Of a stretch of DNA of 64,000 bases, positions 1-6,427 are shown piece after piece; the first letter of the stretch is position 1; every line of letters begins with the position of its first letter. The position numbers and the translations under genes were made by a program. A model generated the notes under the pieces. It was not told where the DNA came from. It did no database searches and was given only the letters and a program-made list of their open reading frames with translations. This DNA is from Sphingobacterium lactis (GTDB lineage: Bacteria; Bacteroidota; Bacteroidia; Sphingobacteriales; Sphingobacteriaceae): positions 3,100,001 through 3,164,000 of the forward strand of contig NZ_CP049246.1 in assembly GCF_011046555.1 (NCBI RefSeq), written 5' to 3'.

Positions 1-1034
1 CAAACTATGACCCTAACACCGCAGCTACTACACCAGGAATACCCTATGTTACGGAGCCGGAAGATGAGGTCCTTAAAAAATACGATCGCAAGACCCTGCA
101 ATATGCATACGATCAGATTGAAAAAGATCTGCTGGAAGGGTTGCCCTTATTAGACAACAGCAGGTACAAAGCTCCAAAGTTCCATTTCACGAATACCTCT
201 GCTCATGCTTTTGCCACCCGTTTCTTTTTATTCAAGAAAGATTACAAACGGGCAGCGGAGCATGCTGAAGCTGCGTTGGGCAGAGATATTGCCAACTATA
301 TACGCCCTATAAATAGCCCGGCCTACCGTACTATGGAATACAACACCAGGCAGCAATGGTATTCTTCCTCTGAACATCCGTTTAATTTATTGCTGGCGGA
401 ATCGCCCAGCACGTGGGGGCGAAATTATCCATTCAATCGTTTCGGGCTTACCTATCCCATCTATTATGAATTGGTTTTGCGGGGGAATATCTCCACTGGA
501 CAGATGACCTATGGCTTCTTCGGTGGCAATGCGCTGGTGATTCATATCCCGAAATTCAGGGAACAGTTTGTAACCGCGAATGTCAATGCTTCATTTGGAA
601 TTCCTTACAACCAGATCCCACTATTTACAGGAGATGAGCTCCTCCTCAATTGGGTGGAAGCACTGGCCAGGCTGCAACAATTTGATTCTGCCATAGAACT
701 ACTCAATACCTTCATCAGCAAAAAGGTGATCTACAACACGGAGGTTCGGGAATATGTACCCGCTGTCCATAACCTGAATGTCACCAAGATCAACAATTAT
801 TACGGCAACCAAAACCTGGAGGAAAACATCATTCGTACCGCGCTGCATTTCAAACGCGTTGAATTCTTATTTGAAGGCTTGCGTTGGATGGATATCCTGC
901 GCCACAGAATTACAGTACGACATATGCTATATGATGGATCGGAAGAATATATCCTTGGCCCGAACAGTAATCTACGCATGTTCCAGATCCCTGATGAAGC
1001 AGTTATGTCAGGTGTAGAACGGAATCCACGGTAA
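1..1034 (+). CDS. SusD/RagB-family outer-membrane uptake lipoprotein, 3' part (5' end outside window)
   Basis: The frame is open from base 3 with no stop upstream, so the first codons and the signal peptide lie outside the window; 343 residues are visible. SusD proteins are surface lipoproteins that cap a TonB-dependent SusC channel and bind the oligomeric nutrient. The visible part has the family's helical TPR-like character, a C-terminal run (LHFKRVEFLFEGLRWMDILR) typical of SusD ends, and the usual IPDEAVMSG-type ending. A TTG at 141 could be read as a start but sits inside the open frame and is not the true start. It is followed 15 bp later by an HExxH lipoprotein and two DUF4302 lipoproteins, the common arrangement for this SusD subgroup. 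The substrate cannot be told from the sequence. Confidence 0.9.
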   Translation, partial: NYDPNTAATTPGIPYVTEPEDEVLKKYDRKTLQYAYDQIEKDLLEGLPLLDNSRYKAPKFHFTNTSAHAFATRFFLFKKDYKRAAEHAEAALGRDIANYIRPINSPAYRTMEYNTRQQWYSSSEHPFNLLLAESPSTWGRNYPFNRFGLTYPIYYELVLRGNISTGQMTYGFFGGNALVIHIPKFREQFVTANVNASFGIPYNQIPLFTGDELLLNWVEALARLQQFDSAIELLNTFISKKVIYNTEVREYVPAVHNLNVTKINNYYGNQNLEENIIRTALHFKRVEFLFEGLRWMDILRHRITVRHMLYDGSEEYILGPNSNLRMFQIPDEAVMSGVERNPR

Positions 1035-1049
1035 TTAAATTAGCAAACA

Positions 1050-1898
1050 ATGAAAACAAAAACATTATTTCTGTTGCTCCTGTGCATTCTTTTAGGCTCC
1101 TGCGCCAAAGAACCTGCACTATCAGAGAAGCCTTTATTTGAACTCGGCGGTGAGCGCTGGGAACGAACGGAACTTGACAAGCTCATTTTCAATGAGTTTA
1201 CAAAACCGTATAACATCGAAATTAAGTACAAATGGAACCCTTATGAGGTAAACCATAACAGAACTTTGGTACCACCTGTGGAAAATCAAATTTACCCTGT
1301 TTTAACCGCACTTAAAGAAGTATGGATGAAACCTTATGAGAAAGCTGGCGGGTCTGAATTTTTGCGCCGGTTTCCACTGACGAAATTCGTATTGGTGGGT
1401 AGCCCTGAATTTGAAAGCGATGGTTCAGAAATTATTGGTCGGGCAGAAGGTGGAACAAAAATAGTATTGTACAACGTCAATGACTTTTTGATTGACAATA
1501 TCGGTTCACTGGAAGACATGTTCCGCACCATCCACCACGAGTATGCACATATTCTTCATCAAAACATCCACTATCCAGAGGAATGGCGCGGAATCAGCAC
1601 CGAACATTATACCCCAACTTGGTATAACACCAATTCGGAAACAGCCAATTCTCAAGGGTTGGTCACGCCCTATGCCAAAGCTTCAGAAGCCGAGGATTTC
1701 GTGGAAACGATCGCCTATCTATTGATTGAAGGTCAAGGTAGCTACAACTGGGTAGCGGAATATTATGAAGAAGTCACCCATATATTTCGCTTAAAAGAAA
1801 GTTTGATCGTTAAATATTTCAAGGATTCCTTCAATATTGATTTTCGGGAATTGCAACGTGAAGTTCAGGATGCCATTTGGCGCTTAGCCTATAATTAA
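1050..1898 (+). CDS. Uptake-associated zinc metallohydrolase lipoprotein (HExxH)
   Basis: 282 residues. A short hydrophobic leader ends in LLGSC, with Cys18 the predicted lipidation site. The motif HHEYAHILH gives an HExxH zinc site at about residues 163-167, and an acidic EAEDFVE stretch some 50 residues later could supply a further ligand. The overall pattern matches the family of lipoproteins with HExxH encoded beside SusC/SusD pairs (TIGR04549 type). The protein probably sits in the outer membrane and may act on the imported substrate, perhaps a peptide, but no substrate is known to me. It lies 15 bp after the SusD fragment and 7 bp before a DUF4302 gene, so it is almost certainly co-transcribed. 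Confidence 0.82.
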   Translation: MKTKTLFLLLLCILLGSCAKEPALSEKPLFELGGERWERTELDKLIFNEFTKPYNIEIKYKWNPYEVNHNRTLVPPVENQIYPVLTALKEVWMKPYEKAGGSEFLRRFPLTKFVLVGSPEFESDGSEIIGRAEGGTKIVLYNVNDFLIDNIGSLEDMFRTIHHEYAHILHQNIHYPEEWRGISTEHYTPTWYNTNSETANSQGLVTPYAKASEAEDFVETIAYLLIEGQGSYNWVAEYYEEVTHIFRLKESLIVKYFKDSFNIDFRELQREVQDAIWRLAYN

Positions 1899-1905
1899 TC
1901 AGCTC

Positions 1906-3180
1906 ATGAAAAAGAATATATTATATTATCTATTTATAGTGGTCTTATTTTCCTCTTGTACAAAAGAGGAGATTAAAACTGAAAGACCCGATGAAAAGTT
2001 GTTCCGCGTACATGAAGAATATATGGATATGTTGACGGAGGCCGAAAGTGGTTGGGTTGGCTATCTATTTCCACGAGGTGGGCGTGGATTCACCTTTCGC
2101 TTTGTATTTACCGAAAACAACAGGGTAAGGACCTCGGCCAACTTAGACGAACGGTATACGGTTGAAGAAATGGAAAGCTCCTTTCGCGTGGTTGCGGATC
2201 AGACCCCATCCCTGAGCTTTGACACCTATTCCTACCTTCATTTACTTTCCGATCCGGATGAATTTGTATTTGGTGGTGCCCGGGGACAAGGGCATTATTC
2301 GGATTTTGAATTTTCTTTTATGAAGGTTTCAAAAGACACCATCCAGCTCAAAGGCAATCACAATGGCAGTACGCTGTTGCTGATCCGCGCCTCTTTGGGG
2401 CAGGATGTCAATTTCATCAGAAATAGTTATGCACTCAACAGGAAGATGGCAGAAATCAATGATTTCCCCAAATACCATAAAAAAGTAACGATCAATAATA
2501 CGGATTTTACATTTACCATTTCACCCCATATCAATTCCATAGCTTTCTATCACCAAGAAGGTGGAACCTTCAAGCAGACCATGGGAATTTATACGGCAAA
2601 TGATTATGGTATCCGCTTCAAGGAACCTGTTGAATTGGCTGGAGAGGTCTTCAATGAAATCACGGATTTCAAAGTCGATGCCCGAAATAATCAGGGAAGC
2701 TTTGTCATCAATAACAAGGAAATAAAAATTACTGCTCTCGATGCGCCGTTATACATCGATCGCTTGGCGCCCACCCGATTCCGTGAAATACCTAAGCAAT
2801 TCCATTCCAGGCATATGTTTACCATCGATGGCGTCCATGATGCCATAGGTCTTCGTGGCTTGGAAGATTTTATCGGTGGATTCTACCTGTCCAATGTTAA
2901 CCAGACTCGACATGATGCCATGTACCTGGTCTATAGGACCGGGAGTAGATATGTTGGTCCTTTGTTTTTCACCCATATTGAAGAACAAACAGGCATCATG
3001 AAACACATCAAGGATATCGAAGCATATGGCTATAATCCTGGTCCTGAAGGCATCATCATTGTGCGCAGATTCAATGACCAGTGGTTTGATGAGGCGGGAT
3101 TTTATGTATTTCAGACTGGACCGACAGATTATGACCTGGTCAATGCCAAAAACGGAAATATCTGGGTTAGATTCAATTAA
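1906..3180 (+). CDS. DUF4302 lipoprotein, first of two
   Basis: 424 residues. The signal peptide ends at LFSSC (Cys18), so this is a predicted lipoprotein. After the Cys comes the DUF4302 opening: a conserved Glu-Arg-Pro pair, then EYMDMLTEAESGWVGYLFP, in which the AxxGW-P pattern is typical. The remainder is predicted mostly beta with no catalytic motif I can recognise. The next gene encodes a second protein of exactly the same length with the same N-terminal pattern (LETYQTLLTAHQSGWEF), so the two are probably ancient tandem duplicates. The role is unknown; the position in the SusD operon suggests an accessory surface-binding part of the uptake machine. Confidence 0.8.
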   Translation: MKKNILYYLFIVVLFSSCTKEEIKTERPDEKLFRVHEEYMDMLTEAESGWVGYLFPRGGRGFTFRFVFTENNRVRTSANLDERYTVEEMESSFRVVADQTPSLSFDTYSYLHLLSDPDEFVFGGARGQGHYSDFEFSFMKVSKDTIQLKGNHNGSTLLLIRASLGQDVNFIRNSYALNRKMAEINDFPKYHKKVTINNTDFTFTISPHINSIAFYHQEGGTFKQTMGIYTANDYGIRFKEPVELAGEVFNEITDFKVDARNNQGSFVINNKEIKITALDAPLYIDRLAPTRFREIPKQFHSRHMFTIDGVHDAIGLRGLEDFIGGFYLSNVNQTRHDAMYLVYRTGSRYVGPLFFTHIEEQTGIMKHIKDIEAYGYNPGPEGIIIVRRFNDQWFDEAGFYVFQTGPTDYDLVNAKNGNIWVRFN

Positions 3181-3192
3181 ATCAATTGCATT

Positions 3193-4467
3193 ATGAAAAA
3201 TTTACTTATTAGTCTTCTGCTGATTTTTTGTCTGAGCAACTGTAATAAGAATGCTTTTACCGAACATGAGGTTGAAAAGGTATGGGTTCCAGCAGAGGAA
3301 CAATTAGAAACCTACCAAACCCTTCTCACCGCTCACCAATCCGGTTGGGAATTTATCATGGAACGCCCGAATGACCATGGTGTCTATTATGGGTTGATTA
3401 ATTTTAAAAATGAAAATGAAATCGACTTCCTGGTAGATTATGCCATCAGGTATACCAAGTACCAACCTGGAAAAATAAACTTCGCCGTTCACAACGGCAG
3501 CCCTTCTTTCAGTTTCCCAAAGTATTCCCCGTTTGCCAACTTCATAGATCATGCTGGGGGACTGGACAGCTTGTACACGTTTAATAAGATCGTGAATGAC
3601 ACCCTATTCCTGGATGGAAATGGTGTCGGTGTTAAACTAAAACTGTACAAATGTCCTCCGGAAAAGAATCAAGCACTTCGAAACAACAGCATGGCGAAAA
3701 ACAAAGATGACCTCTTCAAGATATTTTCGATGAAAAGATTCTTCTTCTATCTCAATAAGGGCGGACAGAGTTTTGATATTGCTTTAGACACCCTGCGAAA
3801 GGAATTTGTGATCAACTATGGAACAAATGAAGATTTTAAAGCATTTACTTCAAAATATTATTTTGATCAGGACGGTATTGTCCTGCAGAAACCATTCTCC
3901 GATAGTGGTGTTGAATTTCGAAAGCTGAAACCACAATCGCAATCGGAATTTACAGCAATCTTCGATGAGGGGATTACCATCACCAATGAACCTAAGCCTA
4001 AGCGTTATAATCTGAAAATCGTCAGTGACTTCAAAGGGCATGATGCACATTTTGGCTGGGGCTCCTATGCTGGGCTCAGCACCCGAGACCAATTGGATAT
4101 TGCCAATATGCGGGCGATTAATGAGGTTGAATTCTTCTCCATCTTTCCGACGTTCATCATTGAGGATGAGCCACCGGTCATCCATGGTTTAGCCGCATTT
4201 ATTATGAAAAGTGGAGATATTGCTCTCGGAATGGACCGACAATTGACCAAATTTACGGATGATGGTCGCGTCTATTTTGAACGCTATATTGTAGAAGAGC
4301 ATCCATCCAGTGAGGAGATAAATGCCGCCAAAGCCAAAATTACTCCATATTTCTATAATGAAAGGGGGTTTTACATCATAGGAGACAACAATGGGCTCTA
4401 TTTGGTGGATGCCCGGGATGGACTGACCTGGGCACACTTCCGGTCATTGACCCGGATGCCACAATAA
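3193..4467 (+). CDS. DUF4302 lipoprotein, second of two
   Basis: 424 residues, beginning 12 bp after the previous gene. The leader ends at CLSNC (Cys17), a plausible lipobox. The QSGWEF segment near residue 53 matches the AxxGW region of the upstream paralogue, and the C-termini are also similar (GFYIIGDNNGLYLVDARDG here, FYVFQTGPTDYDLVNAKNG upstream). Elsewhere identity is low by eye, so the duplication is old. It is the last gene of the uptake operon and is followed by a strong terminator. No enzymatic motif is visible. Confidence 0.78.
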   Translation: MKNLLISLLLIFCLSNCNKNAFTEHEVEKVWVPAEEQLETYQTLLTAHQSGWEFIMERPNDHGVYYGLINFKNENEIDFLVDYAIRYTKYQPGKINFAVHNGSPSFSFPKYSPFANFIDHAGGLDSLYTFNKIVNDTLFLDGNGVGVKLKLYKCPPEKNQALRNNSMAKNKDDLFKIFSMKRFFFYLNKGGQSFDIALDTLRKEFVINYGTNEDFKAFTSKYYFDQDGIVLQKPFSDSGVEFRKLKPQSQSEFTAIFDEGITITNEPKPKRYNLKIVSDFKGHDAHFGWGSYAGLSTRDQLDIANMRAINEVEFFSIFPTFIIEDEPPVIHGLAAFIMKSGDIALGMDRQLTKFTDDGRVYFERYIVEEHPSSEEINAAKAKITPYFYNERGFYIIGDNNGLYLVDARDGLTWAHFRSLTRMPQ

Positions 4468-4513: not shown

Positions 4514-4555
4514 AAAGGGGCATCTGGTTAACAACCAGCGCCCCTTTTATTTTTT
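4514..4555 (+). terminator. Rho-independent terminator of the SusD/DUF4302 operon
   Basis: The outer stem AAAGGGGC (4514-4521) pairs with GCCCCTTT (4540-4547); an inner stem CTGGTT pairs with AACCAG. A T-rich run follows. It lies 47 bp after the stop of the second DUF4302 gene and before the convergent flavoprotein gene. Confidence 0.85.
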
Positions 4556-4583: not shown

Positions 4584-5660
4584 TTACCGTAATAAGCTAT
4601 GTTGACTAGCCGTGAACAAATTGCGAAAGACAATATTTAATTCGGATGTCCTTTGGGCTGCCCTAATCCCCAGAAAAGGAAAGAGTGCTGTTGTATCGTT
4701 TCTGATTTCTGAGACAATAGCTCTTGATTTCTGAGCGATCTCGTTGAGCAACGAGGAATCTATTGCTGGTTCCGATGCTTTCGCTTGGGTCCATAGCAAC
4801 TCGGCTAACTGCAAAATATCCTTACGCGAAGCGGCATGCTTCACCTGGATTTCATCCAATTCTTTGAACCTGGATTTACTGTGTAAATCTGCCCATTTCC
4901 GATCTGTAGATTTCTCAAAATAATATTTCTCCACCAAGTCCGTAAACCTTCTGAACATGCCTATATAATTCACCAAAAGGGTCAATTCCGCAAATGGCAT
5001 AAATGGTATCTGGAACAATGCGGATGTAGATTGCTTGTGCGAAGGATCCAATTGGAAGGCATATGATGCTGGAACCCACACCTGATCCAGGGAAAAAGAA
5101 TGACTTGCCGTACACTCCAGCCCGAATGTATCCCAATCATAATGAACTAGAACCTGATCTCGGGGTACAAAAAACGATCGTATCAAGGGTTCACCATCTG
5201 GCTGGAAAACCTGCTGCCCGGCATCGTAAATTTCCGCATTCAATGTAAAATGGGTTAGATGGGGTGCTCCAGTGGCATAACTCCACATCCCCGATATTTC
5301 ATACCCATCCCCTTTACGGACTGCCTTGCCCCCTACTTGCCCACTCCCGCCTAAACATACCTTAGGATCAGTCCAAACCTGCTTGGCCAATTCAGGATCA
5401 ATAAATCCGGCAAACATATTTGCACCAGAACACAGGGTCACGGTCCAGCCAAGACCACCATCCCAATAGGCCAACTCTTCCAGTACTGCCAATCCCTGGG
5501 GAAATGACGTTTCCAGCCCATGCAAATCTTGCGGTACCCACAGGTTGAACCAATTGTTCGTATAAATCATATCCAGTTGCGCTTGGGTCAATGCTTTGTG
5601 TTGTATACCCGCCGCTTGCAACTCGCGAATTTGGATAATCTGTTCGTTCGTTAAGGTCAT
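4584..5660 (-). CDS. Acyl-CoA-dehydrogenase-fold flavoprotein (group D monooxygenase-like), coupled to pnuT
   Basis: 358 residues. The N-terminal region (LGLETSFPQG-like segment, then VLEELAYWDGGLGWTV) and the ending LFTASQHSLL resemble the acyl-CoA dehydrogenase fold, especially the DszC/HpaB-like flavin monooxygenase branch. I do not see a clear acyl-CoA dehydrogenase catalytic glutamate, so true acyl-CoA dehydrogenation is not supported. FMN or FAD is the likely cofactor. The ATG overlaps the pnuT stop codon (ATGA at 5657-5660), implying translational coupling, and both genes sit behind a TPP riboswitch. By context, a thiamine- or thiamine-precursor-related oxidation is a reasonable inference; the substrate is unknown. 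Confidence 0.72.
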   Translation of the reverse strand: MTLTNEQIIQIRELQAAGIQHKALTQAQLDMIYTNNWFNLWVPQDLHGLETSFPQGLAVLEELAYWDGGLGWTVTLCSGANMFAGFIDPELAKQVWTDPKVCLGGSGQVGGKAVRKGDGYEISGMWSYATGAPHLTHFTLNAEIYDAGQQVFQPDGEPLIRSFFVPRDQVLVHYDWDTFGLECTASHSFSLDQVWVPASYAFQLDPSHKQSTSALFQIPFMPFAELTLLVNYIGMFRRFTDLVEKYYFEKSTDRKWADLHSKSRFKELDEIQVKHAASRKDILQLAELLWTQAKASEPAIDSSLLNEIAQKSRAIVSEIRNDTTALFPFLGIRAAQRTSELNIVFRNLFTASQHSLLR

Positions 5661-6271
5661 ATTCCTTTCAATTCTTGTGATTTCATAATACGTTTCCAGT
5701 TAAAGAACCCAAAGATGGCCACGATGAACAGAAAGGTTGTCAACGCAGCAAATAAATAAAGATCTTTATGGATTAATAAAGGTATTGCAAATAGATTACT
5801 GATATTCAGGAGTATCCAATTTTCAATTTTCCGCTTGGCAAGCAGCCACATACCTGCCCAGGCTGTTGAGGTGACCCACGCATCCCAGATCGGAACATCC
5901 GAATCCGTCAATTTATTCAACAGTAAATAGAACAGCAGGAAACCTCCGAAAACAATGGAAAGGACAATCGTCCATTCCCGCCGGTTGGATGTACTGATGG
6001 GCTGTTGTGCAGCCTCTTTATTGCTGAGCCAGAAGTACCAACCATATATGCTCATGATCAAGTAATAGATGTTCAGCACGATTTCCGCATACAGGCCGGC
6101 CGAAAAGAGAACAAGCATACCACTGAGAATACTTAAGATGCCAAAGAAATAGGTGGATACTTTATTATTCTTGGAGAGCAGCACCTGAATAATTCCGCAT
6201 ACGACCGAAAATCGCTCCAACCAGGAGGTCTGCAGAAAACCATGCACAATATTATCGATAATTTCTTCCAT
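5657..6271 (-). CDS. pnuT: PnuC-family transporter, probable thiamine transporter PnuT
   Basis: 204 residues with about seven hydrophobic segments and the aromatic YGWYFW stretch (about residues 76-81) seen in PnuC-type facilitators. PnuC family members carry nicotinamide riboside, riboflavin (PnuX) or thiamine (PnuT); sequence alone does not separate them here. A TPP riboswitch lies directly upstream, so thiamine is the best-supported substrate. No Shine-Dalgarno sequence is evident, which is normal for Bacteroidota. The start codon lies inside a potential hairpin (6266-6295). The gene is coupled by a 4-bp overlap to the downstream flavoprotein. A generic annotation as a nicotinamide riboside transporter would probably be wrong here. 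Confidence 0.82.
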   Translation of the reverse strand: MEEIIDNIVHGFLQTSWLERFSVVCGIIQVLLSKNNKVSTYFFGILSILSGMLVLFSAGLYAEIVLNIYYLIMSIYGWYFWLSNKEAAQQPISTSNRREWTIVLSIVFGGFLLFYLLLNKLTDSDVPIWDAWVTSTAWAGMWLLAKRKIENWILLNISNLFAIPLLIHKDLYLFAALTTFLFIVAIFGFFNWKRIMKSQELKGI

Positions 6272-6295
6272 AAATAGGATAGTAAACTTATGGAA
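6266..6295 (-). promoter_or_regulatory. Hairpin covering the pnuT start codon (candidate riboswitch expression platform)
   Basis: TTCCATAA and TTATGGAA form a perfect 8-bp inverted repeat (arms 6288-6295 and 6266-6273, 14-nt loop). The pnuT ATG (6269-6271) is inside the downstream arm. It lies just 3' of the TPP aptamer in the transcript, where a translational switch would act. That it works as the switch is inference. Confidence 0.5.
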
Positions 6296-6312
6296 GTACA
6301 GGAGGGTAATAA

Positions 6313-6427
6313 ATCATTCCTACGCCAGCATTACCTGGATCAGGTTCCTTCCGCTCGATGCAGAATTGGGTATAATCTCAGCCTAAAAATATGTCCTGCC
6401 GTTGGGCAGGACATATCAGCACCCCAT
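6313..6427 (-). ncRNA. TPP riboswitch (THI element)
   Basis: Read on the minus strand the conserved blocks appear in order: GGGGTGCT, an optional P3a hairpin with a 12-bp perfect stem (6389-6416, tetraloop 6401-6404), GGCTGAGATTATACCC, GAACCTGATCCAGGTAAT and GCTGGCGTAGGAA. The CTGAGA (6376-6381) and ACCTGAT (6339-6345) motifs are the pyrimidine- and pyrophosphate-sensing cores of the TPP aptamer. It lies 42 bp upstream of pnuT and should reduce pnuT and flavoprotein expression when thiamine pyrophosphate is plentiful. No strong intrinsic terminator is visible between aptamer and gene, which points to translational control. Confidence 0.96.

Follow-up and report, generated by a model that had tools for sequence, protein, structure and literature searches.

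Thiamine salvage is usually pictured as the work of an importer and a kinase. In a 64,000-nucleotide stretch of Sphingobacterium lactis DNA (the window), the gene behind a TPP aptamer and a putative thiamine importer encodes instead a flavoprotein of the acyl-CoA-dehydrogenase fold, which raises the question of what such an enzyme might do for thiamine use. The locus, in gene order, is laid out as follows.

7938-6442, minus strand: mqo, first in gene order ahead of the aptamer
6436-6300, minus strand: TPP aptamer, an RF00059 variant whose P3 is long and whose J2/4 contains an extra hairpin (local scan and relatives)
6271-5657, minus strand: pnuT, predicted PnuC-family thiamine transporter of 204 aa (PF04973, E = 2.8e-49; TPP aptamer upstream)
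5660-4584, minus strand: putative class D-type flavin monooxygenase of 358 aa with predicted catalytic His354 (fold and profile matches)
4514-4548, strand not given: hairpin AAAGGGGC...GCCCCTTTT between convergent genes, seen by eye in the sequence

Both reading frames lie where the earlier note had placed them, as does the four-nucleotide ATGA overlap (5657-5660) shared by the pnuT stop and the flavoprotein start. Only 5 nt separate the mqo stop from the aptamer. Scanning the region for promoters and terminators returned no candidate above chance; the hairpin at 4514-4548, absent from the terminator scan list, is possibly a terminator, a candidate on weak evidence. Genes resembling a SusD-type protein, a metallopeptidase-type lipoprotein and DUF4302 lipoproteins occupy the plus strand at 141-4467 and converge on the flavoprotein gene. 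The genome carries four TPP aptamers, located before thiM-thiE-thiD-tenA, a thiC operon, a TonB receptor and the pnuT-flavoprotein pair.

The last of these aptamers had been described in the earlier note as complete. In a local RF00059 scan (cmscan) it does match over the full model length (E = 4.5e-7, 6436-6300, minus strand), but as a structural variant whose 41.7 bits fall below the Rfam gathering score of 54.3, and it is not listed in the whole-window Rfam scan at that score. The low score comes from an additional hairpin that separates P4 from the 3′ strand of P2.

6365-6349, minus strand: extra J2/4 hairpin UUCUGC-AUCGA-GCGGAA, between ACCC (6371-6368) and P4 (from 6344)

The hairpin, estimated at −6.3 kcal/mol, has counterparts in all 46 distinct aptamers directly before pnuT, with a J2/4 of 16-42 nt, and in most receptor-type aptamers; the five biosynthetic TPP switches compared have a 5-nt J2/4. 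Among 44 aligned relatives the inserted stem covaries, each of its four pairs being kept in 34 to 40 sequences with both sides varying, while P2, P4 and P5 hardly vary and the P2 and P4/P5 pairs are kept in 42-44. The aptamer thus resembles the known TPP riboswitch (RF00059) in its core motifs, P2, P4 and P5, and differs in its sub-cut-off score and in carrying the extra hairpin in J2/4, since the optional stem P3a of that riboswitch sits elsewhere (PMC2258182). In a narrow literature search, no account of a J2/4 variant of this kind came up. On its core and context we file the aptamer as a TPP-type variant despite the Rfam score, and TPP binding is predicted. Pairs of pnuT and flavoprotein genes with no detected TPP aptamer were seen at L057 and L060 (genus g4), where mqo lies immediately upstream of pnuT, and at L058 and L059 (genus g16).

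The transporter is named PnuC by NCBIfam, a label that would suit a nicotinamide riboside importer and place the enzyme in pyridine metabolism. We regard this as highly improbable, given the TPP aptamer upstream of the transporter gene, the presence of thiE and a thiamine receptor in the operon of relatives, and the existence of a second, distinct PnuC-like copy, which in relatives (L124-L126) adjoins a kinase read as NadR-like. A PnuC-family protein (PF04973) encoded behind a TPP aptamer is the combination by which PnuT is recognised, and family and riboswitch context together predict a thiamine transporter. A different PnuT, when expressed in E. coli, is reported to transport thiamine (PMC5613172).

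What kind of enzyme follows the transporter is indicated by both structure and profile comparisons. The AlphaFold2 model of the flavoprotein (mean pLDDT 97.2) has the acyl-CoA-dehydrogenase-type fold (Foldseek probability 1.00), as the earlier note had supposed. Among solved structures it lies closest to XiaF, HsaA, Rhodococcus hydroxylases, Rv3094c and the HPAH oxygenase (C2), with DszC-type enzymes after them; the first 20 matches all fall in the class D group, as oxygenases or, for 2or0, as a putative hydroxylase, and acyl-CoA dehydrogenases rank lower (TM 0.70-0.78). A profile built from 68 members gave an order that agrees with the structural one, with Rv3094c first (E = 6e-44), so that the kinship with DszC/HpaB-type monooxygenases read earlier from the sequence end is upheld, within the class D monooxygenases at large. 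Pfam acyl-CoA-dehydrogenase matches fell below cut-off (PF08028, 15.4 bits; PF02771, 14.1 bits), and the stretch that, by sequence alignment, would correspond to the one with the catalytic Glu of those enzymes reads FTASQHS. We rejected an acyl-CoA dehydrogenase identity on fold and profile rank. Matches to NCBIfam models were likewise sub-threshold (HsaA, 63.2 against a cut-off of 450; DszC, 19.4 against 850; also SfnB and HpaH), and the flavoprotein is not assigned to the DszC or HsaA equivalogs.

The closest characterised comparison is Rv3094c of Mycobacterium tuberculosis, which acts in ethionamide S-oxygenation and in which H351 is described as stabilising the hydroperoxyflavin by donating a proton (PMC9904262). 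His354 of the flavoprotein, invariant in 68 of 68 members, aligns with this residue, and an aromatic gate position is also kept (F136/Tyr128); identity is only ~18%, however, and the Rv3094c gene adjoins a flavin reductase and a repressor rather than thiamine genes. XiaF and HsaA, two-component indole and steroid oxygenases, are top fold matches (TM 0.81-0.89) but share 17-23% identity and act on other substrates, whereas DszC/TdsC and HPAH C2 belong to the same fold superfamily with an aligned C-terminal His region, yet are more distant than Rv3094c and far under equivalog cut-offs. The ranks and the alignment of His354 with His351 make it most likely that the flavoprotein works as a class D two-component monooxygenase, and sequence and model together strongly argue for its place among these enzymes. 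No flavin reductase was recognised in the loci read; the reductase partners of two-component monooxygenases are often unlinked.

Coupling to the importer is strongly supported by gene distribution. The flavoprotein occurs in 94 of 94 Sphingobacterium genomes, and pnuT lies directly upstream in 39 of 39 genus loci read (a set that includes a few genomes counted twice, from two collections) and in 19 of 20 further loci, three of those from the genus. Across the family Sphingobacteriaceae, 204 of 301 genomes carry the flavoprotein. Among the 233 family genomes outside the genus, 131 have pnuT, 136 the flavoprotein, 131 both and 97 neither, and pnuT alone was found in none; genomes were called for pnuT at a best E below 1e-48, those with only the paralogue gave values above 1e-35 with nothing in between, and the two genome lists were transcribed by hand. 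The co-occurrence over these 233 genomes (Fisher P = 3e-60) is a guide only, because the relatedness of the genomes is ignored. The pair seen at a single locus is thus conserved, in the genus loci read and in all 131 pnuT genomes outside the genus, and the lack of conservation that the earlier note named as grounds for refutation did not appear. In three relatives (G117, G126, G135) a single run comprises TPP aptamer, receptor, pnuT, flavoprotein, phosphodiesterase and thiE, followed by a TPK-like gene.

In the wider class, the flavoprotein was found in 33 of 395 genomes. Outside the family it lies behind a TPP aptamer and pnuT in L107 and L108; in L109/L142 and L113, where pnuT is missing, it follows a thiamine receptor under TPP control, and in L119 it lies just upstream of such a receptor unit, while the other lineages have no thiamine gene nearby. 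Its position behind TPP aptamers, first noted here in S. lactis, thus recurs both in genus relatives and beyond. Thiamine-linked rows cluster on the tree, with 6 changes against 12.1 when labels are shuffled. Within the genus, one full copy is broken: at the G018 locus L072 (C1:2178678-2179741) the flavoprotein is a pseudogene interrupted by stop codons, while aptamer and pnuT are intact and thiC is present. A prototroph's pnuT can therefore manage without the flavoprotein. The near-constant pairing with pnuT, as a rule behind a TPP aptamer, marks the protein as apparently an undescribed thiamine-salvage enzyme.

The thiamine genes of the carrier genomes narrow the choice of substrate. ThiC is absent in 32 of 41 carriers, and a de novo biosynthetic role for the flavoprotein was rejected on this ground. 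ThiD, TenA and ThiM are undetected in ten family genomes that have both pnuT and the flavoprotein (G117, G118, G126, G210, G234, G095, G135, G106, G217, G263); the chimeric ThiD/TenA/ThiM query behind this result did detect the full set in five genomes, among them the window's, and gave a ThiD-type match in another six. Since at least ten carriers lack ThiC, ThiD, TenA and ThiM, a pyrimidine precursor would be useless there, and we infer that the enzyme most likely acts on intact thiamine or on a compound closely derived from it. The pyrimidine-type breakdown product or precursor that the earlier note had entertained is for the same reason unlikely as a general substrate. One of the import operons retains thiE (L134:7136-7771) in a genome without detectable ThiC, ThiD or ThiM.

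Kinases present a corresponding picture. A canonical thiamine pyrophosphokinase (TPK) is found in 4 of 41 carriers, none of them within the family, and a TPK-homologous gene in 25 of 41, including the window's genome, whose copy has no match to the Pfam TPK models. Of 14 aligned TPK-like members, 13 have lost the GDFD, DQNKTD and RADHT motifs, and G403 alone keeps them. ThiL is present in all 51 genomes tested. In thiC-less carriers, an undetected thiamine kinase that makes TMP for ThiL could be the plain route to TPP. Sphingobacteriaceae TPK-like proteins, from genomes without canonical TPK, keep MSSHHIVR..QEPAL and LLEWSP and have lost all catalytic motifs; the protein was seen at L130:6139-6708 (own genome, C1:809138-809689) and also in L064, L066, L062, L124, L126, L129, L131, L133, L136 and L139. 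A separate three-gene unit of methyltransferase, AIR-synthase/ThiL-like and ThiE-like genes occurs in genomes G263, G157, G646 and G109; in G263, G157 and G646, all thiC-less, a TPP aptamer precedes it.

L168:2296-4704, L169:2672-5080, L170:8298-10734 (minus strand) and L172:5400-7839 (minus strand): methyltransferase, ThiL-like and ThiE-like unit

How TPP might govern the pair is suggested by three strands of the leader.

6430-6422, minus strand: anti-sequestor strand A, CUUAUGGGG, overlapping the 5′ strands of P1 and P2 and pairing with 6295-6287
6295-6287, minus strand: switching strand B, UUCCAUAAG, pairing with A or C
6273-6265, minus strand: sequestor strand C, UUAUGGAAG, holding the pnuT start codon

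Helices A-B and B-C are mutually exclusive. Of the genus members whose linker is long enough, most have an A-B helix that beats shuffled linkers, and the B-C helix is clear in about one third and weaker in the others. Free-energy estimates for the window leader are −57.0 kcal/mol for the anti-sequestor state and −56.8 kcal/mol for the aptamer-plus-sequestor state, near-equal values that fit expectation for a ligand-operated switch. When TPP is scarce, A would pair with B and leave the pnuT start codon free; with TPP bound, P1 and P2 would form and release B to pair with the start-codon region, so that pnuT translation would drop and, through the ATGA overlap, that of the flavoprotein too. We infer this scheme, which is conserved in the genus, from sequence. 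The terminator scan found no intrinsic terminator in the leader, which together with the mere 5 nt after the mqo stop makes a translational off-switch the likeliest mode; TPP control of pnuT is probably translational, a mode well supported by the sequence. Transcripts of Bacteroides thetaiotaomicron transporter operons are unchanged with thiamine (PMC5613172), and the title of a preprint cited in PMC7366714 speaks of TPP riboswitches in Bacteroides that control transcription or translation; these data, the latter as far as a title goes, agree with a translational mode in the Sphingobacterium leader but are no proof there.

Taken together, we lean, with modest confidence, towards a thiamine-salvage unit in which PnuT imports thiamine, a class D monooxygenase acts on intact thiamine or a derivative, TPP is reached via ThiL, and TPP shuts the unit off at translation. 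The flavoprotein would take reduced flavin from an unlinked reductase and form a C4a-hydroperoxyflavin stabilised by His354, and the oxygen would pass to intact thiamine, or to a closely related derivative, arriving via the receptor and PnuT. The oxygenase may thereby preserve the imported vitamin in usable form, or bring it into such a form, where a catalytic TPK is lost, with TPP then reached through the always present ThiL. Several points count against this explanation, namely the pairing of PnuT with TPK in Bacteroides (PMC5613172), the absence of a linked flavin reductase, the broken flavoprotein beside an intact pnuT in G018, the five family genomes that have the flavoprotein without pnuT, the lack of a detected aptamer for the pair in some g4 and g16 genomes, the absence of a thiamine neighbour for flavoprotein relatives in several lineages (g96 of family f15, f45, f29), and the thiamine kinase that may have escaped detection. 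More tentatively, the flavin monooxygenase may have replaced TPK as the partner of PnuT in Sphingobacteriaceae, in an undescribed oxygen-dependent step on the way from imported thiamine to TPP, a route that ends at ThiL.

The data fit salvage and protection alike. That the oxygenase inactivates toxic thiamine analogues or damaged thiamine admitted by PnuT and the receptor is somewhat unlikely in our estimate; it would account for an enzyme that tracks the importer and not any biosynthetic step, that is predicted to be made only while import is on, and that was lost in a prototroph (G018), but for a pure detoxifier more losses would be expected than the 0 seen among the 131 pnuT genomes outside the genus. 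An oxidative thiaminase or precursor converter, which would free the pyrimidine (HMP) and the thiazole for rebuilding by ThiD, ThiM, ThiE and ThiL, draws on the thiE gene in the operons of G117, G126 and G135, on the thiM, thiE, thiD and tenA genes of the window's genome and on the missing canonical TPK. We consider it unlikely and disfavour the HMP route, because the pieces would be unusable in the at least ten carriers without detectable ThiD, ThiM and TenA. A passenger in the thiamine operon, acting on an unrelated sulphur or aromatic compound, for example, would match the indoles, steroids, thioamides and thiophenes on which the nearest characterised relatives act, and also those relatives without thiamine neighbours. 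The near-perfect co-occurrence of the flavoprotein with pnuT, and the fact that in several families it is linked to one or other of two thiamine genes, make this quite unlikely.

Compared with known systems, the proposed unit of importer and salvage oxygenase resembles the pnuT-tnr3 (TPK) operons of gut Bacteroidetes, which likewise join a TPP aptamer to PnuT, often with a thiamine TonB receptor (PMC5613172). The partner there is a thiamine pyrophosphokinase, whereas in Sphingobacterium it is a flavin monooxygenase and the TPK homologue is degenerate. Among openly accessible papers, we found nothing relevant on a TPP-controlled oxygenase, on thiamine and flavin monooxygenases, or on TPK in Pedobacter, an earlier report being possible.

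In a large and common group of soil and host-associated bacteria, then, the importer is paired near-invariably with an oxygenase, and the kinase homologue lacks its active-site motifs. This may reflect either an oxidative step that has escaped notice in the use of vitamin B1 or an enzyme that guards against damaged thiamine or its analogues, and either reading would assign a function to a family so far recognised only as acyl-CoA dehydrogenase-like.
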